Shown here one piece after another: positions 2,575-6,577 of a stretch of 64,000 nt of DNA. The position numbers and the translations under genes are program-made. The notes under the pieces were generated by a model. It saw only the letters and a list, made by a program, of their open reading frames with translations, was not told the DNA's origin and made no database searches. Positions within the stretch are counted from its first letter, which is position 1, and the number at the start of each line of letters is the position of its first letter. Source of the DNA: Armatimonadota bacterium (GTDB lineage: Bacteria; Sysuimicrobiota; Sysuimicrobiia; Sysuimicrobiales; Sysuimicrobiaceae); the NCBI GenBank assembly GCA_031460175.1, contig JAVKGW010000002.1, positions 1-64,000 on the forward strand, in the 5' to 3' direction.

Positions 2575-2613
2575 AAAAATAGAAGGCCCCAAGCGGAATT
2601 CCGCTTGGGGCCT
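2575..2613 (-). terminator. Intrinsic terminator/attenuator in the nirA leader
   Basis: A perfect 30-bp palindrome (2584-2613; 13-bp stem with an AATT loop) is followed on the minus strand by TCTATTTTT (2583-2575). It ends only 18 nt before the nirA start codon and lies downstream of the predicted promoter, so it would stop transcription before the gene is reached. In this position it is an attenuator rather than the end of an operon. Confidence 0.75.
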
Positions 2614-2627
2614 CACGGCCGGCTTTT

Positions 2628-2662
2628 CAGGCTACAGGGCCTGCGCCCGCAACCGGGCGGGC
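2628..2662 (-). promoter_or_regulatory. Tandem hexaloop hairpins in the nirA leader (candidate ANTAR-type antitermination element)
   Basis: Read on the minus strand, the leader forms two adjacent hairpins. The first (2662-2645) has a 6-bp GCCCGC/GCGGGC stem and the six-base loop CCGGTT. The second (2643-2628) has a 5-bp CAGGC/GCCTG stem and the six-base loop CCTGTA. One base separates them. Both loops fit CCNGTW, with G at position 4. An intrinsic terminator begins 14 nt downstream. Paired hexaloop hairpins before a terminator are the known target architecture of ANTAR antiterminators such as NasR on nitrate/nitrite operons. The known loops prefer A at position 1, while these have C, so the assignment is inference. 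Confidence 0.5.
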
Positions 2663-2677
2663 AAGCCTTTACCCGTG

Positions 2678-2707
2678 CTTATAGGGCAAACGCCAGGGGG
2701 TTGTCAA
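2678..2707 (-). promoter_or_regulatory. Sigma70-type promoter of the nirA operon
   Basis: On the minus strand, TTGACA (2707-2702) and TATAAG (2683-2678) are separated by 18 bp. This is a near-consensus housekeeping promoter. Transcription would start near 2671, giving a leader of about 115 nt that contains both hexaloop hairpins and the terminator. Confidence 0.7.
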
Positions 2708-5360: not shown

Positions 5361-5435
5361 TGGTGGGCGGAGCAGGACTCGAACCTGCGACCCCGTCCTT
5401 GTAAGGGACGTGCTCTCCCACTGAGCTATCCGCCC
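5361..5435 (-). tRNA. tRNA-Val (anticodon TAC)
   Basis: A cloverleaf can be drawn by hand. The acceptor pairs GGGCGGA with TCCGCCC, and the anticodon stem CGTCC/GGACG encloses the loop CTTACAA (anticodon TAC). The T arm has GTTCGAGTC. The discriminator A is followed by an encoded CCA (5363-5361). It lies immediately after tRNA-Leu in the same direction, so the two are probably processed from one transcript. Confidence 0.95.
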
Positions 5436-6577
5436 TGGTGCCGGGGGCGGGAGTCGAACCCACACGGCCGTTGGAGGCCAGCGGAGTTTGAGTCCGCCGC
5501 GTCTGCCAGTTCCGCCACCCCGGCTCCGCCCTCCAGTATACCGGAGGGCAGGCTTGGCCCGAAGGTGGTGAAGTATTCTTTCAGGAACCTTCGGCGGAGG
5601 GGAGGCCAAGTGAAGGCACGCACCGCGAGCTCCACGGCCCCGGCGGGAAGGTGTAGGACGGCCCAGGTCGCCAGCGTCAGAAAGCCCACCCTCCTTCGCT
5701 GGGCGGCCACATAGGCTCGATACCGGTCGCGAGCCCACTCCACGGTGCACCGTCCCTCCAGGATCCGCTGGAAGAGCCGCCCGACCAGCCACCCCGCATG
5801 CACCGCGGACCGGATCCCCTCGCCCGTGAGGGGGAGACACTGCCCGGCCGCGTCCCCCACACCGAACACGGATCCCACCACGGGATCGCGCACCCCGAAC
5901 CCGAGGTAGCCGCCGTGACAGCCCTGGGGCTTGAGGCCGAACCGGTGGACGAACCGCTCCAGGTCCTCCCGCACCCGGGTCCGCCCAAGATAGGAGAGCA
6001 CGCCCAGGCGGACGCGCTCCCCGCAGGGGAACGCCCAGGCGTACCCGTCCGGGAGGATTTCCGGCAAGAAGAAGTGCAGACCCTCCGGGAAAGTGCCCGG
6101 GACCTCCGTCTCCAGCCCGAACCCCAGCCAGCGCCGTCGTTGAAAGCCGCCGCCCACAGCTCGGAGAAGGGCGGCCCGCCACCCCGTGCAATCCGCCAAC
6201 AGCCGCGCCCGGAAGGAGCCGGCCGAGGTGTGCACGGTCGTTCCCTCCACGCCCTGCACGGAAGCCTGCACGAACTCCGCCTCTGTACGGCGCAGGGCCA
6301 GCTGGCAGAAGAGGCGGTAATCGAAGGTACAGAAGGGCTCTCCGTGGAGCGGCCAGACGCAGGTGTTCCGGGGCGTGTGCACCACGATCCGGCGGTGAAC
6401 CTGCAGGATGGCCTCCTCCGCCCCCAGGGCCCGGAGGAGGGAGACAGGGGCGCCGCACGCGGAGGTTTGATGCGCGCCCACGGGGGATCGATCCACCAAC
6501 AGCACGCGCCCCCGGACCTGTTGCGCCACCGCGAGCCCCGCGAAGGAAGCGCCCGCCACGAGCACGTCGTAGGTCAC
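5426..6577 (-). CDS. Geranylgeranyl reductase-like FAD oxidoreductase; reading frame runs through tRNA-Leu
   Basis: A 383-residue open frame with an N-terminal FAD fold (GASFAGLAVAQQV, residues 9-21), a central conserved cysteine-glycine region, and the second FAD motif GVGDAAGQCLPLTGEGI near residues 263-279. This is the geranylgeranyl/digeranylgeranyl reductase (GGR) family, which saturates isoprenoid chains such as menaquinone or lipid precursors. The recognisable protein ends near residue 347. The last ~35 residues are translated tRNA-Leu and the start of tRNA-Val, because no stop occurs until TAG at 5426. A lost stop or frameshift, or a tail removed by tRNA processing, is possible. The ATG at 6577 overlaps the DUF881 stop (ATGA). 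Confidence 0.75.
   Translation of the reverse strand: MTYDVLVAGASFAGLAVAQQVRGRVLLVDRSPVGAHQTSACGAPVSLLRALGAEEAILQVHRRIVVHTPRNTCVWPLHGEPFCTFDYRLFCQLALRRTEAEFVQASVQGVEGTTVHTSAGSFRARLLADCTGWRAALLRAVGGGFQRRRWLGFGLETEVPGTFPEGLHFFLPEILPDGYAWAFPCGERVRLGVLSYLGRTRVREDLERFVHRFGLKPQGCHGGYLGFGVRDPVVGSVFGVGDAAGQCLPLTGEGIRSAVHAGWLVGRLFQRILEGRCTVEWARDRYRAYVAAQRRRVGFLTLATWAVLHLPAGAVELAVRAFTWPPLRRRFLKEYFTTFGPSLPSGILEGGAGVAELADAADSNSAGLQRPCGFDSRPRHQGG
5436..5524 (-). tRNA. tRNA-Leu (anticodon CAA)
   Basis: The acceptor pairs GCCGGGG with CCCCGGC. The anticodon stem GCGGA/TCCGC encloses CTCAAAC (anticodon CAA). There is a long class II variable arm (TGGCCTCCAACGGCCG) and a T arm with GTTCGACTC. CCA is encoded at 5438-5436. 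The gene lies wholly inside the 3' end of the GGR-like reading frame. Confidence 0.95.

Follow-up and report, generated by a model that had tools for sequence, protein, structure and literature searches.

The leader of the nirA gene described here raises the question of whether an RNA built like the target of an ANTAR antitermination protein, with six-base loops beginning with C instead of A, is a genuine target of such a protein. The window, i.e. the whole 64,000-nucleotide stretch of DNA that was analysed, carries nirA on the minus strand (997-2556, ATG at 2556). Its product of 519 amino acids resembles ferredoxin-nitrite reductases (NCBIfam NF007125, E 6e-172), with a score of 572.6 bits, just below the curated cut-off of 594 bits. 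The next gene on the same strand, a member of the formate/nitrite transporter family (171-995; TIGR00790, E 9.5e-50, under the curated cut-off), is probably the second gene of the nirA operon. Two neighbouring tRNA genes occur on the minus strand at 5364-5435 and 5439-5524. From sequence comparisons, we propose with good support that the nirA leader is an ANTAR-type antitermination attenuator. As the canonical A at the first loop position was looked for and not found, we file it as a lineage variant of the ANTAR target, with C1 instead of A1.

All the parts of the leader lie on the minus strand of the window, whose source genome is G000. The promoter consists of a -35 element (TTGACA, 2702-2707), read from the sequence and kept in a sister species (G001), followed after an 18-nt spacer by a -10 element (TATAAG, 2678-2683). 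Transcription would start at about position 2670 (AAAGG); in the alignment of both species, conservation restarts at AAAGG, 6-7 nt past the -10 element. The transcript then comprises the 5' strand of a helix, P0 (GGCUU, 2663-2667; invariant in G001), the hexaloop hairpin HpA (GCCCGC[CCGGTT]GCGGGC, 2645-2662), a linker of a single G, the hexaloop hairpin HpB (CAGGC[CCTGTA]GCCTG, 2628-2643) and a 7-nt linker including the 3' strand of P0 (AAGCC, 2621-2625). HpA and HpB, read from the sequence, are both predicted by RNAfold as well, inside the GGCUU/AAGCC helix, with which they make a compact three-way junction. A third hexaloop hairpin, HpC (GGC[CGTGAG]GCC, 2609-2620), overlaps the intrinsic terminator (2583-2614), a stem of 14 bp followed by CTATTTTT. 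In both species the three loops have C at position 1 and G at position 4, and the three hairpins of G000, as read directly from its sequence, are closed by a C:G pair. RNAfold also drew an outer helix (CACGG/CCGUG), which we dropped from the switch because most of it would lie outside a transcript that begins at the presumed start. The initial annotation had reported the promoter, the adjacent HpA and HpB and a "perfect" terminator with a T tract in front of nirA. All were found, with RNAfold agreeing on the two hexaloops, and the 14-bp terminator stands, but "perfect" was slightly generous because the T tract is interrupted (the tail reads TTCTATTTTT).

The same annotation had taken HpA and HpB alone for the hexaloop motif and had missed HpC, which is the hexaloop that excludes the terminator. 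The 3' arm of HpC is the base of the 5' arm of the terminator (they have the GCC at 2611-2609 in common), and therefore the two structures are mutually exclusive. When the G000 transcript was folded before the 3' arm of the terminator emerges, P0, HpA, HpB and HpC formed together; once this arm was present the terminator, which is far more stable than HpC, won by far. At the earlier stage the upstream part of the G001 leader preferred another fold, and the HpC stem still formed. Two features of HpC count against the ANTAR reading, namely the weakness of its stem (only three GC pairs) compared with the stable terminator, and the possible pairing of C1 with G6, which would turn its loop into a GUGA tetraloop. 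This pairing alone does not exclude HpC, because many Rokubacterial loops (GACGGC, AAGGGT) could pair their positions 1 and 6 in a similar way. Hexaloops arise by chance at the base of other terminators of the genome (26 are listed), and HpC is the sole C1/G4/A5 hexaloop so placed among 149 terminators (2.04 of 2.49 Mb). We regard HpC as the likely antiterminator arm (P2) that excludes the terminator, HpB as its probable partner (P1) and HpA as an extra site.

The following observations count for the ANTAR reading. First, HpC matches, in sequence and position, the P2 hexaloop of the glnA leaders of the same order. These leaders consist of a promoter, then a hexaloop, then a terminator. Of the 15 that were read, 14 (in 14 genomes) have GGC[CNNGAY]GCC as this hexaloop, placed exactly at the foot of the terminator. 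The fourth pair of this P2 helix is G-C, A-U or G-U; both of its sides have changed four times, and the helix stands out above shuffled controls. Six leaders of family f7 also have an upstream P1 (GGTAC[YNRGAN]GTACC), with about 2-3 nt between the hexaloops. In the loci that were looked at, glnA has an ANTAR gene nearby, an adjacency due in part to the choice of region because the loci were fetched around ANTAR genes. The glnA leaders differ from the nirA leader in their target gene, in their P1, which is either of the f7 kind or unrecognisable, and in the absence of the three-way P0 junction; they have no match in Rfam. In L192, L194, L199, L264, L267, L271, L273 and L278, the P2 hexaloop stands at the terminator and the first hexaloop is unrecognisable; leaders with P2 alone would fit a single-hexaloop ANTAR target. 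The glnA gene of G001 (L197) does not have a promoter-hexaloop-terminator leader; close to it, G001 has a third ANTAR gene, which G000 does not have.

This P2 signature bears on a variant of the ANTAR explanation, rather than an alternative to it, according to which HpA and HpB alone are the motif and HpC is incidental. In favour of this variant, both hairpins have stems of 5-6 bp, G4 hexaloops and closing C:G pairs, but neither overlaps the terminator, so that on their own they offer no mechanism of exclusion, and HpC has both the sequence and the position of the order-wide P2. Moreover, they are separated by 1 nt, while a 3-nt linker already failed for EutV (PMC3369931), an argument tempered by the linkers of about 2-3 nt in the f7 glnA leaders. 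We therefore consider it unlikely that HpA and HpB suffice. That one dimer reads both of their loops at once, as had been assumed, is not the current view either; it has been proposed that one hexaloop is bound at a time (PMC8934654).

Second, the nirA leader is conserved. It is identical in G000 and G001 at 59 of 64 nt (92%), versus 55% of the 256 sites in nirA that are fourfold degenerate (Fisher p 3e-9). Two of the five changes lie in the HpA stem, where each makes a pair a G-U wobble. The other three are loop changes: the loops of HpA and HpB each differ at position 3 and that of HpC at position 2, and no loop differs at C1 or G4. The G001 hairpins read GTCCGC[CCCGTT]GCGGGT for HpA, in which the stem changes preserve pairing as wobbles, and GGC[CCTGAG]GCC for HpC, and HpB has the loop CCCGTA on a stem identical to that of G000. 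A covariance search, suggested by the initial annotation, was carried out with a model of the exact leader on 43 genomes of the order; it recovered G000 and G001, both of genus g1, and no strong match in the other genomes. The nirA leader of genus g2 is arranged differently, with several C1/G4 hexaloops, and adds little because its stems are weak and it has no clear U-tract terminator. The restriction of the exact leader to two genomes of one genus and the different arrangement in g2 count against the ANTAR reading.

Third, G000 encodes two ANTAR/HisKA_2 systems. The statement that the window has no ANTAR gene is correct, and a search of the genome, also suggested at the outset, found two elsewhere, so that the absence of ANTAR-domain proteins is ruled out. 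Both are REC-ANTAR response regulators (E 2e-22 and 4e-21; REC and ANTAR are their only Pfam domains), and each is preceded by a HisKA_2 kinase, one of which has a GAF domain. One kinase/regulator pair is located directly upstream of gltB. Neither kinase has a recognisable nitrogen sensor domain, which is a further point against the ANTAR reading. The nearest solved structures are those of Rv1626 (1s8n) and EutV (6wsh). In EutV, the G4 base is contacted by R142, K149, E160 and the aromatic residue 164 (PMC8934654), and the alignments with 6wsh indicate that these residues are kept in the ANTAR domains of the order, which by analogy counts for the ANTAR reading. Neither G000 protein has a NIT domain fused to ANTAR. 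The NasR-type regulator initially envisaged must consequently be replaced by EutV-like two-component ANTAR response regulators, and because of this the direct signal need not be nitrate or nitrite.

In another reading, the leader is an RNA-only attenuator or ligand riboswitch, in which the P0/HpA/HpB junction serves as an aptamer and no protein reads the loops. The compact junction predicted by RNAfold suits it, as does the conservation of paired and unpaired bases between the two species, which goes beyond what an ANTAR target needs. It is nonetheless improbable, as the Rfam search of the leader returned no family above the gathering threshold (up to E 10, all hits were fortuitous and due to the terminator hairpin), the loop changes are confined to positions 2 and 3 with C1 and G4 fixed in the three loops, the glnA leaders of the order have a C1/G4 hexaloop at the terminator without any such junction, and the genome does have ANTAR genes.

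As regards chance, two strong G4 hexaloops appeared in 16 of 20,000 dinucleotide shuffles of the 58-nt leader, and among the 149 terminators in the 82% of the genome that was read, only that of nirA has a strong G4 hexaloop pair upstream, so a chance origin of the pair is unlikely. With these counts, the strong conservation of the leader relative to the fourfold sites and the location of the terminator between promoter and gene, it is very improbable that the leader is a simple attenuator acting constitutively, or an insulating terminator, with hexaloops that are by-products of GC-rich sequence, even in a GC-rich genome with frequent hairpins and the chance hexaloops listed above.

Fourth, for the ANTAR reading that we prefer, classical ANTAR leaders directly precede nirA in other bacteria. 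The NirA orthologues of Rokubacteria and Deltaproteobacteria are about 58-64% identical, and the leaders of their genes combine a P1 hexaloop with a P2 hexaloop that overlaps the terminator. Their P2 loops are A1/G4 (AAGGGT, AAAGGC) or sometimes G1 (GATGGC); in their P1 loops, position 1 is A, G or once C, and position 4 is always G. An ANTAR gene is present in 11/11 genomes with such a nirA leader versus 4/23 without it (Fisher p 5e-6, a value that is optimistic because the counts include related genomes). These leaders thus resemble ours in their downstream gene, in the dual hexaloop and terminator and in the presence of an ANTAR response regulator in the genome, and differ in the first base of P2. 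Together, the ANTAR genes, the C1/G4 glnA leaders of the order and these nirA leaders support the initial suggestion of a divergent ANTAR target that keeps G4 and has its own code at position 1.

It is worth comparing the nirA leader with two known systems that are close to it. Like EutV/EutW acting on the eut leaders of E. faecalis (PMC3369931, PMC8934654), it would depend on a two-component ANTAR regulator with its own sensor kinase, its hexaloops have G4, its terminator has bases in common with a hexaloop hairpin (the second one in eut), and its 7-nt HpB-HpC linker falls within the 5-12 nt of the eut leaders. Unlike them, it has C1 instead of A1, three hexaloops instead of two and an overlap between HpC and the terminator of just three bases. 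As for the NasR-controlled nasF leader of Klebsiella oxytoca (PMC7496416), it is likewise an attenuator in front of a nitrate/nitrite assimilation operon, with G4 hexaloops closed by C:G, a pair preferred by NasR in SELEX (PMC7496416), so that the closing pairs of HpA, HpB and HpC also count, by analogy, for the ANTAR reading. The nasF loops, however, start with A and not with C, and NasR joins its ANTAR domain to a NIT domain that senses nitrate, whereas the present proteins are REC-ANTAR regulators with kinases whose sensor regions are GAF or unassigned.

The C1 loops, which count against the ANTAR reading, go along with a change in the proteins. The EutV residue Met172 is located within the loop, binding is lost in the M172A mutant, and the crystal structure shows no contact with A1 (PMC8934654); A1 is conserved in the known targets, and A1U mutations lower EutV binding and induction (PMC3369931). 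The residue at position 172 is Met in 11/11 ANTAR domains of Rokubacteria and Deltaproteobacteria. In contrast with EutV, the ANTAR domains of our order, those of G000 included, do not have this Met172 plug of the hexaloop: among 39 distinct domains, 34 have Arg at this position, 5 have Gln and none has Met (one more domain, with an indel, was left unscored). The ANTAR domains near the glnA leaders have Arg. Tentatively, the ANTAR code of this order may have been rewritten: C (or T) would have replaced A at the first loop position and Arg or Gln would have replaced Met172, with the contact between G4 and Tyr/Phe kept. This code would govern the regulons of glnA and nirA at the least, and on nirA it would involve an array of three hexaloops. 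C1 loops and Arg/Gln172 are correlated across very few independent lineages, which may be coincidence; a true link between them is possible, though somewhat less likely than not. If true, it would offer a natural variant pair for testing the role of loop position 1. A lineage with C1 loops would also escape the current searches for ANTAR targets, because their models are built on A1 and G4, and ANTAR control of nitrogen assimilation would be extended to an uncultured, poorly studied group.

We propose that the attenuator works as follows. With no signal, the nascent RNA would fold into the terminator, leaving nirA untranscribed. Upon a signal, presumably nitrogen status or nitrate/nitrite, a HisKA_2 kinase would phosphorylate its own ANTAR response regulator, the presumed acting protein, which would then bind the hexaloops of the leader, all of the form C-N-N-G-N-N. 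HpC and HpB, perhaps along with HpA, would be held by the regulator, and HpC would capture the GCC in the basal part of the terminator's 5' arm. Because this GCC is taken, the base of the terminator beside the U tract could not form, and transcription would enter nirA and the nitrite transporter gene, the presumed direction of control being antitermination.

Other leaders of the order were also considered. The gltB leader beside one of the ANTAR genes is no ANTAR target, and in genus g1 it has a terminator only. In two genomes of g2, gltB leaders match the Guanidine-I (ykkC) model RF00442 just above the gathering threshold (L192:15951-16057, minus strand; L194:12109-12215, plus strand), and a similar ykkC-like sequence is found below threshold upstream of gltB in L191 and L195. 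Such a ykkC-like gltB leader occurs in genera g2 and g3, and that of g2 is possibly a ppGpp-type ykkC riboswitch; the gltB leaders of g1 (G000 and G001) have lost the aptamer and kept the terminator. Finally, a conserved pair of C1/G4 hexaloops stands upstream of sat, near where the sat-nirA2 (sulfate assimilation) operon of genus g2 begins (L005:3467 region, L006:4006 region and L014). The pair reads CGTTC[CGAGAC]GAACG T CGCGC[CGTGTT]GCGCG, with variants, has no terminator, and is a possible translational ANTAR target.
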